From positions 186,001 through 250,000 of the forward strand of contig NZ_JABAIM010000002.1 of NCBI RefSeq assembly GCF_012641365.1: a stretch of 64,000 nucleotides of DNA, read 5' to 3'. Of the stretch, positions 21,943 through 63,309 are shown one piece after another. The DNA is from Leeia aquatica. GTDB lineage: Bacteria; Pseudomonadota; Gammaproteobacteria; Burkholderiales; Leeiaceae. Under the pieces are notes generated by a model that ran no database searches, was not told where the DNA came from, and worked only from the letters and a program-made list of their open reading frames with translations. The position numbers and the translations under genes were made by a program. The stretch's first letter is position 1. Every line of letters starts with the position of its first letter.

Positions 21943-23166
21943 CTAGCTGGACTGTTTCAGCAGCGCGCAGCCGCTCTTCTCCACCGGGCGGAAGGCCCTG
22001 TCTCCCTTGATGGTCCGCATCACCTTCAGCAAGTCCCAGTCGCTCTTGGACTCGGAAGGCCGCTTCACCTGTACATAGTACATGTCATGAATCATGCGGC
22101 CATCCTCGCGGATGCGCCCAGCCTTGGCAAAGAAGTCATTGATTGGCGTGGATTTCATTTTGGCCATCACGGTATCGGCCTCATCGGTCCCCGTATCACG
22201 TACCGCGTTCAGATAATGGGTAACGGCTGAGTACACCCCAGCCTGGTTCTGATTGGGCATGCTGCCAAATTTTTTGTAGAACCGCTGCGCCCAGGCCCGG
22301 GTTTCCGGGTTCATGTCCCAATAGAAGGCGGTGGTATAGCGCATGCCTTGTGCCGCATCCAGACCGAGTGCGCGAATATCGGACTCATATACCACCACGC
22401 CGATGAACTCTTGCCCTTTCTCAGCCAGACCAAAATCCTTGGCCTGGCGCATGGCATTGACAAAGTCACCACCTGCATTGGCCAACACCAGCTCTTTGGC
22501 ACCCTTGGCTTGCACCTCCAGCAGTGGCCCGGTCATGTCGGCCTGCCCAGGCTCGTGCTTGACACTGCCAAGGAATTTGCCGCCGGACTGCTTGATCAGC
22601 GCCAGGCCATCCAGCATGTCGCCGGTCAGCGGGCTGGCCTTGCCGTAATCCACCATCAGGATGGCCCAGCTATCAGCTCCGTCCACCGAGGCCTCTCGGA
22701 TCGACGTGGTGATCAGCGCATAGGCATCCATCGCGTAGTGAATGCCATATCGAGTGCAAGCTCGGTTGGTCAGCTGGCTGGTGGTAGCCCCCGTGGTCAT
22801 GGTGATCTTGCGCTGGGTGGCGGCGTAGCGTTGTACTTCCAGCGCTACTTCGGAATTCATCAGGTCGGTGACCATGTCAACTTCGCCGCCTTCCATCCAG
22901 CCTTTGGCGATGCGTACCGCTTCTTCCGGCTCGTTACGATGGTCCGCAGAGACCAGCTGGATGGGCTTGCCCAGCACCTTGCCACCAAAGTCGGCAATCG
23001 CCATCTGTGCCGCGGCAACGGTACCTTTACCCCCAACCTGGGCGTAGATGCCGTTCATGTCGGTCAGTACGCCTATCTTGACCACGTTGTCGGAAATACC
23101 AGTCGCTGCCTGGGCGAAAGACGCAGTCAGGCAAGCCACCGCCAGCAGGCGGGGGGTGAAAGTCAT
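21943..23166 (-). CDS. ABC transporter substrate-binding protein (branched-chain/amide family), orphan
   Basis: A 407-residue periplasmic type I binding protein of the HAAT family. A signal peptide (MTFTPRLLAVACLTASFAQA, cleaved near AQA) is followed by VVKIGVLTDMNGIYAQVGG, the usual first strand and ligand loop, and later SADHRNEPEEAVRIAK and MTTGATTSQLTNRAC. No permease or ATPase lies nearby, so the ligand cannot be assigned (amino acid, amide or aromatic compound). ATG 23166 has AGGAG about 7 nt upstream. The 300-nt upstream region holds a palindrome. Confidence 0.88.
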   Translation of the reverse strand: MTFTPRLLAVACLTASFAQAATGISDNVVKIGVLTDMNGIYAQVGGKGTVAAAQMAIADFGGKVLGKPIQLVSADHRNEPEEAVRIAKGWMEGGEVDMVTDLMNSEVALEVQRYAATQRKITMTTGATTSQLTNRACTRYGIHYAMDAYALITTSIREASVDGADSWAILMVDYGKASPLTGDMLDGLALIKQSGGKFLGSVKHEPGQADMTGPLLEVQAKGAKELVLANAGGDFVNAMRQAKDFGLAEKGQEFIGVVVYESDIRALGLDAAQGMRYTTAFYWDMNPETRAWAQRFYKKFGSMPNQNQAGVYSAVTHYLNAVRDTGTDEADTVMAKMKSTPINDFFAKAGRIREDGRMIHDMYYVQVKRPSESKSDWDLLKVMRTIKGDRAFRPVEKSGCALLKQSS

Positions 23167-35237: not shown

Positions 35238-35770
35238 CTTGTCCGCAAGCAAAATAAAATCAGCGTTCACGCATAATTACCTCACTAATATTTCGCAGGC
35301 TTTGTAGTTTCAATACGCGAAAATCATGCATATCGCCATCTACCTCTCAAGGCAGGATGCGCCTTATACGGCATGATGCGCCGCACAAATGGCAATTCAC
35401 TGTCAAAATCTCACTTGTTTGCGCGCTAACAATGTACCTTTACTACACTTTACTCACCTGTACACAGTAGGCATAATACGGCGCAACTGTAGTGTGCCAG
35501 TCGGCTGGCGCTGCGCATGTGCGCCAGCGCACTGACCCCATCCACAAGGCAAGGGCATGATCCGGTACCGATACGCTGTACAGCATCCCCATCCTCCGAC
35601 CCGCTTGACCCAGCGCAAGCCCGTAGCCTTGGCGTTCCCGGATACTGGCGCTACAAGCTGTTTCTGCCTGATCCAAAACCACCGGCAAACTGACACCTGA
35701 AAGCAGGCCATCCGCCCGCCAACAGGCTATGCTGCCTTTGCGAGACAACATCAAGAGCAAGAGGTCCACG
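35238..35770 (+). other. Long regulatory region upstream of aceE
   Basis: About 530 nt without a supportable gene. Contents: an AT-rich stretch at 35238-35330; GATGCGCC twice at 35356-35363 and 35375-35382, 19 bp apart (about two helical turns); a sigma-70-like promoter at 35449-35477; and a hairpin with 8-bp arms at 35504-35511 and 35521-35528. The aceE leader would be about 285 nt from that promoter. I recognise no PdhR-type site. Confidence 0.5.
35449..35477 (+). promoter_or_regulatory. Sigma-70-like promoter for the pyruvate dehydrogenase operon
   Basis: TTTACT (35449-35454), 17-nt spacer, CATAAT (35472-35477) on the plus strand. The first downstream gene on this strand is aceE at 35771. 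Confidence 0.5.
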
Positions 35771-38434
35771 ATGACTGCACTACCACCGAATGACATCGAC
35801 CCGCAAGAAACCCGGGAGTGGCTGGAAGCGCTGGAAAGCGTTCTGGAACACGAAGGTAGCGAACGCGCCCAGTTCCTGCTGGAAACGCTGACCGACAAGG
35901 CGCGCCGTACCGGTGCCCACCTGCCCTTCTCGGCGACCACCGCTTACCTGAACACCATTCCGCCGCACAAGGAAGCACGCAGCCCAGGTGATCATGCGCT
36001 GGAAGAACGCATCCGGTCGTACATTCGCTGGAACGCACTGGCGATGGTGATTCGCGCCAACAAGAATTCTTCCGAGCTGGGCGGCCACATTGCCTCCTTC
36101 GCCTCGGCTGCCACCCTGTACGATGTGGGTTTCAACCACTTCTGGCATGCACCCACCGCCGAACACGGCGGCGATCTGGTCTATATGCAGGGCCACTCAG
36201 CGCCCGGCATCTATGCGCGCGCCTATCTGGAAGGCCGTATCAGCGAAGACCAGCTCAACAGCTTCCGTCAGGAAGTGGATGGCGGTGGTCTGTCGTCCTA
36301 TCCGCACCCGTGGCTGATGCCGGACTTCTGGCAGTTCCCGACCGTGTCCATGGGTCTAGGCCCGATCATGGCCATCTACCAGGCCCGCTTCATGAAGTAT
36401 CTGGAAAGCCGCGGCCTGTCGAAAGATACCAACCGCAAGGTCTGGTGCTTCTGCGGTGACGGTGAAATGGATGAGCCGGAATCGCTGGGCGCCATTTCGC
36501 TGGCTGGCCGCGAAAAGCTGGATAACCTGGTGTTTGTCATCAACTGTAACCTGCAGCGTCTGGACGGCCCGGTGCGCGGCAACGGCAAGATCATCCAGGA
36601 ACTGGAAGGTGACTTCCGTGGCGCGGGCTGGAATGTGATCAAGGTGGTGTGGGGCAGCTTCTGGGACCCTCTGCTGGCGCGCGACACCAAGGGCCTGCTG
36701 AAGCAGCGCATGGAAGAATGCGTGGACGGCGATTACCAGACCATGAAGTCCAAGGATGGCCGCTATGTGCGCGTCCACTTCTTTGGCAAGTACAAGGAAC
36801 TGGAAGAAATGGTCGCCAACATGTCCGACGAGGACATCTGGCGTCTGAACCGTGGCGGTCACGACCCGCACAAGGTGTACGCCGCTTACCATCAGGCGGT
36901 GAACAATCCTGGCGGCCGCCCGACCGTGATTCTGGCCAAGACCATCAAGGGCTACGGCATGGGCCGTGCCGGTGAAGCACAGAACATCACCCACCAGCAA
37001 AAGAAGATGGATATCGACTCGCTGCGCGAGTTCCGTGACCGCTTCCGCATCCCGGTCAGCGACGAGCAACTGCCGGAAGTACCGTTCTACAAGCCTGCCG
37101 ACGACAGCCCGGAAATGCAGTACATGCTGGGTCGCCGCGCGGCACTGGGCGGCTACCTGCCCTCGCGCAAGCCGGTAGAAACCGCGCTGGACATTCCGGC
37201 ACTGAACACCTTTGAGCGCCTGCTAAAATCATCTGGTGAGCGCGAACTTTCCACCACCATGGCCTTTGTGCAGATGCTGGGCATGCTGGTGAAGGACAAG
37301 AATATTGGCCGCCACGTGGTACCGATCGTGCCGGATGAATCCCGCACCTTCGGCATGGAAGGCATGTTCCGCCAGCTGGGCATCTGGAGCTCGGTCGGTC
37401 AGCTGTACGTGCCGCAGGACAGCGAACAGCTGATGTTCTACAAGGAAGACAAGAGCGGCCAGGTCCTGCAGGAAGGCATCAACGAAGCAGGCGGCATGTC
37501 GGACTGGATTGCTGCGGCGACGGCTTACGCCAACCATGGCGTGCCGATGATTCCGTTCTACATCTACTACTCGATGTTCGGCTTCCAGCGGATTGGTGAC
37601 CTGGCCTGGGCAGCGGGCGACATGCGGGCGCGCGGCTTCCTGCTGGGTGGTACCGCCGGCCGCACCACGCTCAACGGTGAAGGCTTGCAGCACCAGGATG
37701 GCCATAGCCACGTCTTCGCGGGCTTCATCCCGAACTGCCTGTCTTACGATCCGACCTTCTCCTATGAGGTGGCGGTCATCGTGCAGGACGGCCTGCGCCG
37801 GATGTACGCCGAAAACGAAAACATCTACTACTACATCACCTTGATGAACGAAAACTACACCCACCCGGAGATGCCGGAAGGGGTGGAGGAAGGCATTCTC
37901 AAGGGCCTGTACCTGTTCAAGCAAGGTGCGGACAGCGACAAGAAGGTACAGCTGCTGGGCTCCGGTACCATCTTGCGCGAATCCATTGCCGCCGCAGACC
38001 TGCTGCGCGACGACTGGGGTGTGGAGTCGGACATCTGGAGCGTGCCGAGCTTCAATGAGCTGAAGCGCGATGCGGTTGCTGCGGAACGCTGGAACCTGCT
38101 GAACCCGACCGCCGAGCCGAAGCTGAGCTATGTGGAGGAGCAGTTGTCCGGTCGCCAAGGACCGTTCATTGCCACCACCGATTACATCCGCAACTACGCA
38201 GACCAGATCCGTAACTGGGTGCCTGGGCAATACGTGGTGCTGGGTACGGATGGTTTTGGTCGTTCGGACACCCGCCGCAAGCTGCGCCACTTCTTCGAGG
38301 TGGACCGCTACTTCATCACCGTCTCGGCGCTGTCGGCGCTGGCCAAGGAAGGCAAGATCGGTCGCGATGTGGTGGCGCAAGCCATCACCAAGTATGGTCT
38401 GGACCCGGAGAAGGCCAACCCGGCCACCGTATAA
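35771..38434 (+). CDS. aceE: Pyruvate dehydrogenase E1 component
   Basis: Thiamine-diphosphate decarboxylase of the pyruvate dehydrogenase complex, homodimeric type. The TPP-binding motif GDGEMDEPESLGA runs to NCNLQRLDGPV near residues 230-265; KTIKGYGMG and the catalytic histidine region SHVFAGFIPNC are also seen. 887 residues, the same size as the Escherichia coli enzyme. I start at ATG 35771 (MTALPPNDIDPQET) with AAGAGGT upstream. It is followed 68 nt later by aceF and then lpdA; a hairpin lies in the aceE-aceF gap. Confidence 0.98.
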   Translation: MTALPPNDIDPQETREWLEALESVLEHEGSERAQFLLETLTDKARRTGAHLPFSATTAYLNTIPPHKEARSPGDHALEERIRSYIRWNALAMVIRANKNSSELGGHIASFASAATLYDVGFNHFWHAPTAEHGGDLVYMQGHSAPGIYARAYLEGRISEDQLNSFRQEVDGGGLSSYPHPWLMPDFWQFPTVSMGLGPIMAIYQARFMKYLESRGLSKDTNRKVWCFCGDGEMDEPESLGAISLAGREKLDNLVFVINCNLQRLDGPVRGNGKIIQELEGDFRGAGWNVIKVVWGSFWDPLLARDTKGLLKQRMEECVDGDYQTMKSKDGRYVRVHFFGKYKELEEMVANMSDEDIWRLNRGGHDPHKVYAAYHQAVNNPGGRPTVILAKTIKGYGMGRAGEAQNITHQQKKMDIDSLREFRDRFRIPVSDEQLPEVPFYKPADDSPEMQYMLGRRAALGGYLPSRKPVETALDIPALNTFERLLKSSGERELSTTMAFVQMLGMLVKDKNIGRHVVPIVPDESRTFGMEGMFRQLGIWSSVGQLYVPQDSEQLMFYKEDKSGQVLQEGINEAGGMSDWIAAATAYANHGVPMIPFYIYYSMFGFQRIGDLAWAAGDMRARGFLLGGTAGRTTLNGEGLQHQDGHSHVFAGFIPNCLSYDPTFSYEVAVIVQDGLRRMYAENENIYYYITLMNENYTHPEMPEGVEEGILKGLYLFKQGADSDKKVQLLGSGTILRESIAAADLLRDDWGVESDIWSVPSFNELKRDAVAAERWNLLNPTAEPKLSYVEEQLSGRQGPFIATTDYIRNYADQIRNWVPGQYVVLGTDGFGRSDTRRKLRHFFEVDRYFITVSALSALAKEGKIGRDVVAQAITKYGLDPEKANPATV

Positions 38435-42890: not shown

Positions 42891-43661
42891 TCAGCTGCGA
42901 CCTGCCTTGATCACGCCAACATAGCCTTTGTATTCAAACTTGCCCTGGATCGACTTTTTGTCATCCTTGGTCACCACCTTGAACTCGATGGTCACCTCAC
43001 CATTTTTCAGCCGGGCCTTGACCACATCCCCCTCGATCTTGCCTTCCTCAAAGGCATAGGCTACATCACCATCCGGGGTACCGTAGAACAGCGCCTGGCC
43101 CATGACCTTACTGCCATCGACCTGGTCCACTTTCACCACCAGCTTGTCCTCAAACTGGAACTGATCCAGCAGCCATTTGCCCTTCCACTCACCCAGCAAA
43201 TCCGCATTGCCAGCTACTGGCGGGGTGGTCGTTGCGGTAGCGGTGCCGGGGGCAAAGTCGGAGAGTTTCACCACTCCAACATAACCCTTGTATTCAAACT
43301 TGCCCTGGATCGACAGCTTGCCGTCACGCTCCACCGGCTTGAGGTCAATGGTGACTTCGCCATTCACCGCACCAAAGTGCATCTTGCTGTCGGGGGCATA
43401 TTGCGCATCCATCATGGGCCCGGTCACATCACCATTTGGCGTGCCGAAGAAGGAGACCACACCCTTCAGGGTGGAGCCTTCGATGGCGTCAATCCGCAAC
43501 ACCATCTTGTCCTCAAACTGGAATTGCTCCAGATACCACTTGCCCTTCCATTCACCGACCAGACGCGCCGGTGCTACCGCACTGTCTTCTGCCTGGGCCG
43601 TACCGGCCAACATCAGCAATACTGCAAACAGGCTTGCGCCGAGTTGTTTCATCCATTGCAT
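42891..43661 (-). CDS. Exported protein of unknown function with two tandem domains
   Basis: 256 residues. A signal peptide (1-24, cleavage after TAQA) is followed by two copies of one domain of about 100 residues: residues 33-132 and 154-252, joined by a Thr/Pro/Ala linker. Each copy opens with GEWKGKW, continues QFQFEDK and ends SIQGKFEYKGYVGV; the middles diverge (VSFFGTPNGDVTG versus ALFYGTPDGDVAY). The pattern suggests a small beta-barrel or sandwich, perhaps lipocalin-like, in the periplasm. I recognise no family. Near-identical DNA at the two copy ends points to a fairly recent or conversion-maintained duplication. It stands alone, with its own terminator. Confidence 0.8.
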   Translation of the reverse strand: MQWMKQLGASLFAVLLMLAGTAQAEDSAVAPARLVGEWKGKWYLEQFQFEDKMVLRIDAIEGSTLKGVVSFFGTPNGDVTGPMMDAQYAPDSKMHFGAVNGEVTIDLKPVERDGKLSIQGKFEYKGYVGVVKLSDFAPGTATATTTPPVAGNADLLGEWKGKWLLDQFQFEDKLVVKVDQVDGSKVMGQALFYGTPDGDVAYAFEEGKIEGDVVKARLKNGEVTIEFKVVTKDDKKSIQGKFEYKGYVGVIKAGRS

Positions 43662-59228: not shown

Positions 59229-59389
59229 TTCTACGCAGCCGCTTCGGTAGCGAACCCAATAGGCATAGCGCAAGCGCTCGCTTAATATCCGTTTCGTAGT
59301 CTTGGTTGTTGATGGTTTTGCTGTCAGCAACCTGCGCTCCCAATCGCGTAGACTGCTGAACCGGCTTACGCCGGTTTGTCCTCACTCAG
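59229..59389 (+). other. Untranslated 3' region of the two-component operon
   Basis: About 160 nt between the regulator stop and its terminator. It contains small palindromes: AGCGCAAGCGCT near 59267, TTGCT-GTC-AGCAA (59318-59330) and AACCGGC-TTAC-GCCGGTT (59359-59376). I see no gene. It may yield a 3'-derived RNA (speculative). Confidence 0.3.
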
Positions 59390-59427
59390 GCCGCACTATC
59401 TGGATACGTAGTGCGGCTATTTTTTTA
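59390..59427 (+). terminator. Intrinsic terminator of the two-component operon
   Basis: Stem GCCGCACTA/TAGTGCGGC (59390-59398, 59409-59417) with a 10-nt loop, followed by TATTTTTTTATT. Confidence 0.88.
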
Positions 59428-59428
59428 T

Positions 59429-60532
59429 TCAGTGCACAGCCTCATCCGCTGCAACCTGATCCAGATCCAGGAACAAGGGCTGCCCGTCCGCCCCCAGCGC
59501 AGGCTGCACATCACGAACACGGCGAATGTCCGTCACCTGGCACTCCTGCAGCAAGCTTTCCATCATATGCTGCACCGAGGCGACCCGATCCAGTGCCGAC
59601 AGGCGCCAGACAAAACGCTCCCGCAAGGAGGGCTGCAGTACCGAGCCCAGGCACACCCGCAACTCGCCACCTTCATGACACGCCAGCACGGCGGCCGGAT
59701 CACCCACGCCCTCCCGTACCTTGCGGATCTGGGTGCTGGCAAACAACTGAAATGCCACTTCCAGGCAGGTAAAACGCGCATCATGCCGACCCGCCATCAC
59801 CCCGCTCATGGGGCGAGGCATGACAAACAGGGTCAGCCCATTCTGTTGCCATTGGGTCTGCAGCAGTTTGCACAGTGCCAACCCCCAACCTTGCGCATCG
59901 CCACCCAACCGCACCAGCGACTCCCCCTCCTGCTCCAGCGCCAGGCCCACCAGGCAGCGTACATGCACCCCTTCATTGCCTTTGACCACTAACGGTGATG
60001 CCGGCAACGACAAGGGCAAGCCCTGTCCGCCTTGCTGCACGGACAACATGGCCTGATACCAGGTGCTGGCTGAAACGGCATCCATGGACGGTAAATCGCA
60101 CAGAGTATCAGACAGCCAGATCTGATTGCTGTCGGCCAGCACCCCGTGCTGTTGCAGCAAGGCCATGGCAGCCGCCGCATCTGGCAAGGTCGCCGGAATG
60201 GTCACCTCCTGCCGCGCACCCGCCACCAGTATCAGCGGCAACATGAACAGGCGAGCCCGCTTGCCATCCGGGCGGCTGAGCACCTCCCCATCCACCAGCT
60301 GACACAGCTGCTGCCACAGCACGTCATGCGCCTCTTGGGCAGGTGCTGCCTGCAGTGCGTGCTGCAAGGCTTCGTCCTGCCCCGACAGCAAGGCATCGCG
60401 TACCGCGTGTTGCAGGGCGATCAAGGTTTCCGGCTGATCCGCCTGGGTCAGGTGGCTCATTACACGGCGCAGCAGGGGCTGCTTGGGGTCCATCCGGGCG
60501 TACTGGCGGGGATCAGGCAAGAGCATGGTCAT
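59429..60532 (-). CDS. Conserved protein of unknown function
   Basis: 367 residues with no signal peptide or membrane helix. The N-terminal 100 residues are helical and Gln/Leu-rich (VMSHLTQADQPETLIALQHAV), followed by an alpha/beta region (RARLFMLPLILVAGARQEVTIPATL; HGVLADSNQIWLSDTLCDL) and a C-terminal part with FVMPRPMSGVMAGRHD. I recognise no family or catalytic motif. Start chosen at ATG 60532 (MTMLLPDPRQY); ATG 60526 and upstream codons are alternatives. It stands alone between a terminator and a divergent non-coding unit. Confidence 0.7.
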   Translation of the reverse strand: MTMLLPDPRQYARMDPKQPLLRRVMSHLTQADQPETLIALQHAVRDALLSGQDEALQHALQAAPAQEAHDVLWQQLCQLVDGEVLSRPDGKRARLFMLPLILVAGARQEVTIPATLPDAAAAMALLQQHGVLADSNQIWLSDTLCDLPSMDAVSASTWYQAMLSVQQGGQGLPLSLPASPLVVKGNEGVHVRCLVGLALEQEGESLVRLGGDAQGWGLALCKLLQTQWQQNGLTLFVMPRPMSGVMAGRHDARFTCLEVAFQLFASTQIRKVREGVGDPAAVLACHEGGELRVCLGSVLQPSLRERFVWRLSALDRVASVQHMMESLLQECQVTDIRRVRDVQPALGADGQPLFLDLDQVAADEAVH

Positions 60533-60721
60533 CGGTTCTTCAGAGGTTTCATCAATCAAGGCGACAGTATACCAGCACCGCCTGCACAACCATGCCCAGC
60601 CCGCTTGTGCAGCGGGTTACAAAAAAAGGAGACCGCATGGAACTTTCCCGCATGTAGCCTACTCTGAGTTGGGCTGTCAGGAAGAATGTCATTTTTTTTG
60701 CTGCTGTGCACAACATTTAGC
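60533..60721. other. Upstream half of a 463-nt gap, with a mini-ORF
   Basis: Between the unknown gene and the small RNA unit. It holds a CCCGC/GCGGG hairpin (60600-60616) and, on the plus strand, a strong AAAGGAG followed by ATG 60637 and only six codons (MELSRM, stop at 60657). A 30-codon hydrophobic reading (60686-60778) overlaps the sRNA promoter. Neither is a convincing gene. Confidence 0.4.
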
Positions 60722-60750
60722 TTGCAAACTGAATTGTCTTGTAGCATAAT
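60722..60750 (+). promoter_or_regulatory. Sigma-70-like promoter of a candidate small RNA
   Basis: TTGCAA (60722-60727), exactly 17 nt, CATAAT (60745-60750). The next plus-strand signal is a terminator 70 nt further on, before any gene. Confidence 0.6.
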
Positions 60751-60756
60751 GCAGTC

Positions 60757-60847
60757 ATCAGGAATGAGGTTCTTCTGATTTCTTGATAGTGTCTCCTCTT
60801 TTCTCCTTTGGAGTTTGCGGCCCGGTTCACACCGGGCCTCTTTTTTT
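60757..60847 (+). ncRNA. Candidate small regulatory RNA of about 90 nt
   Basis: Bounded by a good promoter and a strong intrinsic terminator, with no supportable reading frame inside. Predicted features in order: a 5' stem-loop (60757-60779, ATCAG/CTGAT with inner GAA/TTC and a TGAGG loop), a pyrimidine tract at 60792-60809 rich in CTCCT, TCTCC repeats resembling an anti-Shine-Dalgarno sequence, a small CTCC/GGAG hairpin, then the terminator. This is the usual layout of Hfq-dependent antisense sRNAs. Exact ends, expression and targets are inferred. It is oriented toward the AraC-type gene, whose start is about 150 nt beyond the terminator, so an alternative is a prematurely terminated leader. 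Confidence 0.5.
60819..60847 (+). terminator. Intrinsic terminator of the candidate small RNA
   Basis: Perfect 8-bp stem GGCCCGGT/ACCGGGCC (60819-60826, 60831-60838), TCAC loop, then TC and seven Ts. Confidence 0.9.
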
Positions 60848-60995
60848 CTCCCTCCCATGCCTCACTCTGCCGTGTAGTTTGACAACGCGCAGTACATCAT
60901 TTCACTTTGTTGCAACGCAGCATAATGGCTGTGTCCCACTCAGCCAGACAATCCCGTATCATGGATGCCTATCCTGCCATGCTGTGATACACCTC

Positions 60996-61634
60996 ATGAT
61001 CCCTGTCATTCTCGAAGCCTGGCAAGCCACGACGGCAGCCAGCGGCGCATTCTGGGTGCCGCCAGATGGTTGTCGCGATCTGATCATCCACACCCGTTCA
61101 TCAGGTCACCGTGTAGCCCTGATCGCCCCGCTGGCCGATCAGGCCTATACCGTAGAAGGCGTGGCCGGCGAGCGCTACCTCGGCTATCGCTTCCAGCCCG
61201 GAGCCCAGTTTGATGAAAGCCGTCTGCTACGCGCCTTGCAGCTGCAGCGTGACCCGAATCCGGCTGACCTGAATGCCATCATTGGTGAAGAAGTACGACT
61301 GGATGCGCGGATACATGAGGCGTTGCAGGGGCTGGCTGCCAGCTCGAGTGTAGCCGTCGCCTGTCGCCAGTTGGGGGTGGGTGAGCGCACCTTGCAACGC
61401 TTGCTGACACCCACGGGTCGCCATCCCGCATACTGGATTGCGCTGGGGCGCGCGCGCCGTGCGGCACGCGCCCTATTCTCAGCCACGCCCCTGACGGCTC
61501 TGGCCTGCGATGTGGGCTATGCTGACCAGGCGCACATGACGCGCGCCTTTCAGCGCTGGTTCCAGCATACCCCCGGCCAGTTGCGCAACCAGCCCACATG
61601 GTTGGGGCTACTGTCGGCCCCGGCCTTTGCTTGA
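60996..61634 (+). CDS. AraC-family transcriptional regulator
   Basis: 212 residues. The C-terminal double helix-turn-helix (about 115-195) shows VAVACRQLGVGERTLQRLL and LTALACDVGYADQAHMTRAF, then FQRWFQHTPGQLR, the AraC signature. The N-terminal 105 residues (ILEAWQATTAASGAFWVPPDG, RDLIIHT) form a cupin-like sensor shared with regulators such as DUF6597-type activators. Start ATG 60996; the long upstream reading runs through the terminator and is not coding. Converges on a VOC gene 14 nt away. Confidence 0.88.
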   Translation: MIPVILEAWQATTAASGAFWVPPDGCRDLIIHTRSSGHRVALIAPLADQAYTVEGVAGERYLGYRFQPGAQFDESRLLRALQLQRDPNPADLNAIIGEEVRLDARIHEALQGLAASSSVAVACRQLGVGERTLQRLLTPTGRHPAYWIALGRARRAARALFSATPLTALACDVGYADQAHMTRAFQRWFQHTPGQLRNQPTWLGLLSAPAFA

Positions 61635-62175: not shown

Positions 62176-63309
62176 TTACTTCACCGTCACCACTTGCCAC
62201 TTGCCACCCTTCACTTCATAAATGGTGACCGGGGCATTCTTCGGCTCACCGTTGGCTTCGAATTCGAAGGTACCGGTCACGCCCTTGTAGCTGATGGTCT
62301 TCAGCGCTGCCAGATACTTGGCAGGTTCGGTGCTGTTGGCCTTCTTCATGGCTTCAGCAACCAGGTACACTGCATCATAGAACTGCGGCCCAAACAGCAC
62401 CACGTCCTGGTTGTACTTGGCCTTGTACTTCTTCTCGAACGCTGCTCCGCCCGGTTGCTTGTCCAGCGGTGCACCCGCCACAGCGGAAAAGTGACCTTCA
62501 GCCGGCTTGCCGCCTGCCATTTCCACAAACTTGTCGGTGTTCAGCATGTCACCGCCCATGATCTTGGCGGTCATGCCCAGGCCGGCCATTTGCTTGACCA
62601 GCGGCGCAGCTTGCGCATCCGCACCACCGTAGAACAGTACGTCCGGATTGCTGCCCTTCAGGGAGGTCAGGATGGCGCTGAAATCCACAGCCTTGTCGGT
62701 GGTGAATTCGTGGCGCAGGATCTTGCCGCCGTTGGCCTTCACCGCAGCTTCAAACTGCTCGGCCAGGCCTTGACCATAGGCGGTACGGTCATCGACCACC
62801 ACAATGTTCTTGGCCTTCAGGGTCTTGACGGCATATTCGCCCAGCACCTTGCCCAGGAACGCGTCGTTACCCACCAGACGGAAGGCGCTCTTGAAGCCTT
62901 GCTGGGAGTACTTCGGGTTGGTCGCCACGGTCAGCTGTGGGATGCCTGCATCGGCGTACACTTTGGAGGCCGGAATGGAGGTACCGGAGTTGAAGTGACC
63001 GATGATGGCGCTCACCTTGGCATCCACCAGCTTCTGAGCCACTACCGTGCCCATGCGCGGGTCGGCCTGGTCGTCTTCAACCACCAGTTCAAACTTGACC
63101 TTCTGGCCACCCACCATCACACCCTTGGCGTTCAGCTCTTCTACGGCCAGACGGGCTGCATTTTCATTGTCCTTGCCATAGTGTGCTTGTGCGCCAGACA
63201 GCGGCGAAGCAAAGCCCAGTTTCACAACGGTATCAGCCAGGGTCAGACCGGAGCTGGCGGCAAACGCCAGGGCAATGGCAGACAGGGCCAGTTTCTTCGG
63301 GTTCATCAT
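62176..63309 (-). CDS. Branched-chain amino acid ABC transporter substrate-binding protein (LivK-like)
   Basis: 377-residue periplasmic binding protein. Signal peptide (NPKKLALSAIALAFAASSGLT, cleaved near LA-D), then VVKLGFASPLSGAQAHYGKD, the LivJ/LivK ligand loop, GHFNSGTSIPASKVYADAGI and VVDDRTAYGQGLAEQFE. Leu/Ile/Val or another small amino acid is the likely ligand. No livHMGF genes are in the window; it has its own terminator and so may be a stand-alone unit. GAGGAG lies about 10 nt upstream of ATG 63309 (ATG 63306 also possible). Confidence 0.93.
   Translation of the reverse strand: MMNPKKLALSAIALAFAASSGLTLADTVVKLGFASPLSGAQAHYGKDNENAARLAVEELNAKGVMVGGQKVKFELVVEDDQADPRMGTVVAQKLVDAKVSAIIGHFNSGTSIPASKVYADAGIPQLTVATNPKYSQQGFKSAFRLVGNDAFLGKVLGEYAVKTLKAKNIVVVDDRTAYGQGLAEQFEAAVKANGGKILRHEFTTDKAVDFSAILTSLKGSNPDVLFYGGADAQAAPLVKQMAGLGMTAKIMGGDMLNTDKFVEMAGGKPAEGHFSAVAGAPLDKQPGGAAFEKKYKAKYNQDVVLFGPQFYDAVYLVAEAMKKANSTEPAKYLAALKTISYKGVTGTFEFEANGEPKNAPVTIYEVKGGKWQVVTVK

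Follow-up and report, generated by a model that had tools for sequence, protein, structure and literature searches.

Organization of the locus

The window analysed here is the whole stretch of 64,000 nucleotides from Leeia aquatica (contig NZ_JABAIM010000002.1, positions 186,001 to 250,000), and all positions below count from its first letter. Between a minus-strand gene and an AraC-type gene on the plus strand, the window holds a predicted sigma-70 promoter followed by a short segment that ends in a GC-rich hairpin and a T-run (Table 1). A first-pass annotation, made from the sequence alone, had taken this arrangement for a self-contained unit specifying a candidate new small RNA. We observed that the promoter, the 8-bp hairpin and the T-run are all present, and that the upstream plus-strand operon does have its own terminator, at 59389-59418. 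The terminator stem of the predicted RNA (60819-60838) comprises eight pairs, seven of them G-C, with a loop of four, and is followed by TCTTTTTTT.

Table 1. Predicted features at the sRNA locus, with positions in the window.
Feature	Position	Strand	Remarks
Divergent neighbour gene	59429..60541	-	370 aa from the start used; conserved locus marker; no Pfam or NCBIfam match
PhaR-like operator, TTGCTGCTGTGCACAAC	60698..60714		Predicted; starts 24 nt before the -35; 2 mismatches to the consensus YTKNTGCRNYGCANMAR
Sigma-70 promoter, TTGCAA-17-CATAAT	60722..60750	+	-35 TTGCAA, 60722-60727; -10 CATAAT, 60745-60750
Predicted sRNA, 91 nt	60757..60847	+	Start set by prediction, 7 nt 3' of the -10
Stem-loop 1	60757..60787	+	In 43 relatives, 98.3% of cells paired and 3 of 7 pairs changed on both sides
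CU-rich part with two anti-Shine-Dalgarno motifs, and stem-loop 2	60788..60813	+	CUCC at 60793-60796 and 60803-60806; stem-loop 2 closed by GGAG at 60810-60813
Stem-loop 3, intrinsic terminator, with T-run	60819..60847	+	6 of 7 pairs changed on both sides
Second PhaR-like site, TTGTTGCAACGCAGCAT	60907..60923		1 mismatch; lies past the sRNA terminator and before the AraC-type gene; could be chance
AraC-type gene	60996-61634	+	First in-frame ATG at 60996; ORF extendable to a TTG at 60783

The absence of a supportable gene between promoter and terminator, also claimed at first pass, was borne out. The first ATG of the AraC-type ORF lies well downstream (Table 1), its Pfam HTH match begins only at residue 135 of the translation from 60960, and a coding reading of the 60757-60847 region is without support. 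Promoter-like matches occur at chance level (2 in 5 kb, with 1.4 expected in shuffles) and terminator-like sites above it (12, with 4.1 expected in shuffles); it is conservation in relatives that lifts the promoter-terminator unit above chance.

The 91-nt segment has a stronger predicted fold than each of 200 dinucleotide shuffles (z -3.1). In the ensemble prediction, the second CUCC is about 91% unpaired whereas the first is mostly paired with the GGAG that closes stem-loop 2, so that the CU-rich tract, previously described as unpaired, would be exposed mainly at its second motif.

Conservation and covariation in related genomes

With 96 bases as query, blastn matched 26 genomes, counting that of the window, out of 399 at order level, and 24 of these matches take in the core. 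Two matches (G049 and G097) span only the end of stem-loop 2 to the terminator and were not counted as sRNA. A scan with a core pattern found 55 stretches in named genomes, including Chromobacterium, Aquitalea, Vogesella, Pseudogulbenkiania and Paludibacterium, and also Crenobacter, Laribacter (a MAG), Aquaspirillum, Neisseria and Leeia oryzae. The scan required the exact core, and conservation of the core within it is thus no evidence; since only the core was fixed, conservation outside the pattern (stem-loops 1 and 3, the promoter and the neighbourhood) is informative. The promoters of L003 and L004 have the identical hexamer pair and spacing to that of the window.

We aligned 43 transcripts out of 47 distinct ones (L030, L039, L045 and L070 were left out). 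The alignment supports three helices, with standard pairs in 95.5% of the cells, and 9 of the 19 pairs are changed on both sides, with 61 compensatory cells. None of 500 shuffles reaches any of five measures, which is strong evidence but gives no probability since the shuffles ignore relatedness. Sliding by 1-3 columns lowers pairing to 30-51%. In stem-loop 2 none of the pairs is changed on both sides among the 43 transcripts, and covariation support is absent there. The window's genus has five copies, three of them in G002 and a single one each in G001 and the window's genome; their consensus fold pairs GGAG with the first CUCC, while the other relatives have a UCUAU/GUAGA stem at this place. 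On these predicted folds, stem-loop 2 is rewired in the window's genus in comparison to other NmsR-type RNAs.

A covariance model built from the 43 transcripts, R1, scores the window at 64.4 bits and matches at least 134 of the 399 order genomes at E 0.001 or better, with a single strong match in the window's genome. A possible sibling copy in this genome, L011 (27.1 bits with RF02877), was dropped, its sequence being without the CU-rich core. Copy number varies elsewhere: G002, of the window's genus, has three dispersed sibling copies (L004, L008 and L009) versus one each in G001 and the window's genome G000, a Neisseriaceae MAG (L046) has three NmsR copies in a row (5002, 5456 and 5894), and a genome of f51 has two adjoining model matches (G234:C1:10992-11238).

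Taken by comparative evidence, the region 60757-60847 is very likely a real sRNA gene. The idea of an independent sRNA with anti-Shine-Dalgarno segments fits what we found, the covarying structure, promoter, terminator, CU tracts and locus all being conserved.

Relationship to the NmsR and RF02278 families

At the gathering scores, Rfam models gave nothing in the window. In a permissive scan, the NmsRb model (RF02877) matched the RNA over its full length with 41.2 bits (E 1.8e-5; gathering score 52). The other four copies of the genus score 36.3-45.6 bits with this model, relatives in other families 64.6 to 91.3 bits, and five copies in one Neisseria and one Neisseriaceae-MAG locus 89-103 bits. 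Two further models gave matches below their gathering scores: RF02278 with 35.5 bits (gathering score 50) and RF00519 (MmgR/suhB) with 27.5 bits (E 4.5e-4 in a 201-base scan; gathering score 41).

We fetched 20 loci from the lower-scoring R1 matches. Eighteen are of RF02278 type (15 above the cut-off and three at 39-49 bits); L183 (52.7 bits with NmsRb) and L180 (neither family at E 0.01) are not, and were kept in the 20-locus palindrome counts given below. The NmsRb model places 8 of the 18 RF02278-type loci at 35-46 bits, and since this is the range of the window, the NmsRb score alone does not settle the family. Reciprocally, the RF02278 model gives up to 48.5 bits on NmsR-type loci. R1, on the other hand, scores the fetched RF02278-type loci at 52.2 bits and less versus 64.4 in the window. 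We grouped the window with NmsR because of its core and blastn matches, this R1 score and the locus. To judge from its sequence, the window RNA is a diverged orthologue of Neisseria NmsR and NgncR_162/163 that lies below the Rfam cut-off, and we call it an NmsR-like orthologue and not a formal Rfam member. The link to Neisseria sRNAs, which the first-pass annotation had offered only as analogy, appears instead as homology, with graded scores through intermediates and a common neighbour gene. The candidate thus stands as an sRNA gene, and its novelty is reduced to that of a diverged member of an already known kind.

NmsRA/NmsRB of N. meningitidis and NgncR_162/163 of N. gonorrhoeae (RF02877) likewise have three stem-loops and a terminator, and the window RNA has in common with them the full-length model match, the CU-rich anti-Shine-Dalgarno segments between stem-loops 1 and 2 and in loop 2, and the locus of NmsR-type genes. 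It differs in its rewired stem-loop 2, in its score below the NmsRb cut-off and in that pairing to gltA, sucC and sdhC is not detectable in the window's genome. In addition, this genome has a single copy whereas Neisseria-type genomes have tandem copies, and the window has a PhaR-like site whereas control by RelA was reported for NmsR (PMC5362039). NmsRb scores of 98-107, and a second copy in tandem at four of the five f44 loci scanned, lead us to take family f44 (G374) as Neisseria-type.

The RNAs of RF02278 (Betaproteobacteria toxic or double-hairpin sRNAs, ncS27 and others in Burkholderia cenocepacia) have the same CU-rich anti-Shine-Dalgarno layout and often the same upstream palindrome. 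They differ from the window RNA in their core and in the window's score below their cut-off, and the neighbour gene 59429-60541 is one found at NmsR-type loci. PMC5688073 had already remarked on the likeness between double-hairpin RNAs and NmsR. With cross-scores in both directions, the NmsR-like and RF02278 families may form one superfamily, although CU-richness and a terminator alone could give such scores. A second CU-rich candidate in the window's genome, L012 (also L093; G000:C2:624539-624642), is RF02278-like with 35.8 bits, below the cut-off of 50; there is no clear PhaR-like site in 150 nt, its best palindrome match being no better than shuffles.

MmgR of Sinorhizobium meliloti (suhB or alpha-r8, RF00519) is also CU-rich; it is Hfq-dependent, and its promoter is bound and repressed by PhaR/AniA (PMC12542648, PMC8401924). 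It is alphaproteobacterial, and its regulatory dyad lies between the -35 and the -10 (PMC8401924), not upstream of the -35 as in the window. Its resemblance to the window RNA lies in these features and in a weak model score.

Genes neighbouring the sRNA

A homologue of the divergent gene 59429-60541 lies beside the sRNA in 47 of the 55 named loci, and is divergent in all 47. The distance from its extrapolated 5' end to the sRNA core is 195-322 nt in these 47 loci and 251 nt in the window. Among the eight loci without it, five have at most 271 nt of upstream sequence and three (L042, L048 and L063) have more; beside the Neisseria loci L042 and L063 it is absent despite enough sequence. A related neighbourhood is found in the Neisseriaceae MAGs L040, L046 and L082. 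This gene is a possible functional partner of NmsR-type sRNAs.

In G001 and at one of the three G002 loci, a binding-protein gene is found at a distance of about 2.7 kb from the sRNA and is, respectively, 82% and 79% identical to 62176-63309; we take the intervening ORFs to encode an FAD oxidoreductase and a proline-racemase-like protein. The divergent gene has no match in four stretches of G001 and G002. The window's sRNA has both neighbours, the divergent gene and the binding-protein gene.

Alternative explanations

Could the promoter and terminator have come together by chance, with no conserved transcript? Promoter-like matches are indeed as frequent as in shuffles, but sequence, structure, promoter, terminator and neighbourhood are conserved across genera, and we give this explanation next to no weight. 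The segment could also serve the AraC-type gene as a 5' leader, a possibility that the first-pass annotation had itself raised, or as an attenuator: it lies on the same strand and its terminator precedes the AraC start codon by about 150 nt. However, the RNA is conserved together with a promoter and a terminator of its own in genera in which the gene on its other flank is the neighbour that stays constant, and tblastn found no match to the AraC-type gene in the 59 related loci searched. A leader is thus very improbable.

Slightly less remote, and still unlikely, is that the RNA belongs to the sister family RF02278 and is no NmsR orthologue. Beside the score with the RF02278 model, the TGTCTCC start of the core, the PhaR-like promoter site and a CTTGC-type -35 are common to RF02278-type genes, and the NmsRb scores of such loci overlap that of the window. 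Yet the window falls below the RF02278 cut-off too, with a bit score nearer NmsRb, and R1 scores it above all the RF02278-type loci fetched. Moreover, its blastn matches are to the NmsR-type core, it has the neighbour gene of NmsR-type loci, and the same genome has a separate RF02278-type candidate, L012.

Predicted mode of action and targets

We favour, with a probability of roughly 85% that covers both the sRNA and its mode of action, the reading in which 60757-60847 specifies a stand-alone trans-acting sRNA, a diverged NmsR orthologue in a Leeia-related betaproteobacterium, that would mask ribosome binding sites via its anti-Shine-Dalgarno segments. To judge from sequence and conservation, it would be transcribed from its own sigma-70 promoter and end at its own terminator. 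Pairing of the CU-rich segments, chiefly the one exposed in the loop of stem-loop 2, with ribosome binding sites would then reduce the translation of several mRNAs, probably with the help of Hfq as suggested by NmsR. This masking is expected because of the homology to NmsR. Mutating either alpha-SD of NmsRA was reported to abolish repression of the tested target fusions, with the exception of gltA, for which only alpha-SD2 mattered (PMC5362039), and the gonococcal siblings NgncR_162/163 bind Hfq and also control amino-acid uptake (PMC9973317). The regulon of the window RNA would be unlike that of Neisseria, and the PhaR-like operator upstream of the -35 would tie its synthesis to PHB storage, a step that by itself has about even odds.

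We ranked 75 gene starts by hybrid energy (51 in the window and 24 in two fetched stretches, with approximate start choices); gltA ranks 12, prpB (named from its position beside prpC) 15, prpC 31, sucC 66 and sdhC 71. As a control, the sRNA of each genome was compared with 500 shuffled targets, counting those at least as strong. The counts in the window's genome are 256 for gltA, 344 for sucC, 488 for sdhC and 26 (5%) for prpC. They are 0 for gltA and prpC, 21 for sucC and 138 for sdhC in G374 (f44), and 8 for gltA, 51 for sucC, 72 for prpC and 78 for sdhC in G366, taken as the Aquitalea genome. As a prediction, the test picks up the known targets in part (not sdhC), and in the window's genome none of them, prpC at 5% apart. 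Neisseria-style TCA targets (gltA, sucC and sdhC) were dropped for the window's genome, being unsupported by predicted pairing against shuffled targets.

The strongest predicted site in the window is at the gene of a Peripla_BP_6 protein (21943-23166, -22.3 kcal/mol), followed by that of a 256-aa protein with no Pfam match (42891-43661, -21.7 kcal/mol), where GGAGACACTA, lying over the Shine-Dalgarno, is complementary to the sRNA. The 9-mer GGAGACACT followed by ATG, the complement of the first CU tract, has two overlapping matches at one place in G000 versus 0 for the reversed pattern; with 3 versus 3 in G001 and 3 versus 2 in G002, the search is uninformative. When phasin mRNAs were taken as targets, following the example of MmgR, shuffled targets were as strong in 2 of 300 cases for L210 (rank 6 of 76), 2 of 300 for its homologue L211 and 15 of 300 for L212. 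With shuffled sRNAs as control the same three gave 10, 58 and 158 of 500, which is weak, and the pairing geometry differs. Other phasin starts gave 112 (L219), 41 (L218) and 88 (L220) of 300 shuffled targets as strong.

A putative PhaR operator upstream of the promoter

The upstream palindrome of many of these sRNA promoters agrees with YTKNTGCRNYGCANMAR, the consensus for PhaR in Ralstonia eutropha (PMC12849132), and with the sites of S. meliloti, in which the promoter of mmgR, an sRNA gene, is bound by PhaR (PMC12542648). Across the whole window, matches with up to 2 mismatches are not enriched (14 versus 15.8 expected), and the window's own site is weak when taken alone. Among 69 class-1 promoters, 12 have the palindrome with up to 2 mismatches (1.0% in mononucleotide shuffles), and all 12 start 21-25 nt before the predicted -35. 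These are four of the five copies of the window's genus, the five f32 rows, and three of four from Pseudogulbenkiania. The palindrome is also found at 11 of the 20 lower-scoring, mostly RF02278-type loci (1.0% in shuffles), in 8 of them at 22-25 nt. The idea of PhaR arose from this first 20-locus set, and only 20 loci fetched later make an independent test, carried out with no fixed-distance requirement; 9 of them have the palindrome (2.95% in dinucleotide shuffles).

The host phasin genes L219 and L210 have the palindrome with 0 and 1 mismatch, respectively, directly upstream of TTGACA, starting 22 nt before it. The position of the window's site is thus common to related sRNA promoters and nearly the same as at the host's phasin promoters. 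Of 20 genomes tested, 16 have phaR (PF07879), among them the three of the window's genus; the four f44 genomes tested are without it. A phasin is present in 9 of 10 genomes tested and not in the f44 genome. The palindrome is missing from 57 of the 69 class-1 promoters, among which are the five of f51 and those of named Chromobacterium, Aquitalea and Vogesella; phaR is present in the three f51 and two f27 genomes tested. It is also missing from 11 of the 20 loci of the independent set, and the phaR tests covered other genomes than those 20.

On these sequence data, PhaR is about as likely as not to control the window's RNA. A broader proposal, tentative and slightly less probable than that, is that PHB-storing betaproteobacteria have a widespread superfamily of anti-Shine-Dalgarno sRNAs, NmsR-like and RF02278, with many promoters under the PHB-sensing repressor PhaR, so that filling of the carbon store would directly reprogram translation. 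The alphaproteobacterial PhaR-MmgR pair would be its counterpart, and the Neisseria type, whose checked genomes are without phaR, would have kept the RNA, placed it under other control and directed it at the TCA cycle.

In the open-licence papers searched we found no report of a Leeia sRNA, nor of PhaR control of NmsR or RF02278 RNAs. PhaR is unmentioned in the main text of PMC5688073, PMC11722255 and PMC7011215; a common upstream motif in three of four double-hairpin homologues is described in PMC5688073 in passages that name no regulator, and two reviews of PHA regulation name MmgR as a PhaR-controlled sRNA. What appears to be new here is the PhaR-operator-like site upstream of the sRNA -35, as at the host's phasin genes, in four of the five genus copies and at many sister 'toxic' sRNAs. 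The comparison places a Neisseria metabolic sRNA in a wider, largely environmental family, of which the window has a rewired form. If the link to PhaR is true, the PHB state would be an input signal for betaproteobacterial 'toxic' or double-hairpin sRNAs, and it would suggest how such an RNA loses one input and regulon and gains another.

Two further observations concern upstream sites. The NmsR-type promoters L034, L053, L026 and others of Chromobacterium, Aquitalea and Vogesella that are without a PhaR-like site have a common stretch made of GCGACA, an AT-rich part and TTCGAAA or similar, to which another regulator may bind. In the window, a PhaR-like palindrome with 1 mismatch (35373-35389) precedes the pyruvate dehydrogenase E1 gene (35771-38434), at about 380 nt from the start adopted for that gene.
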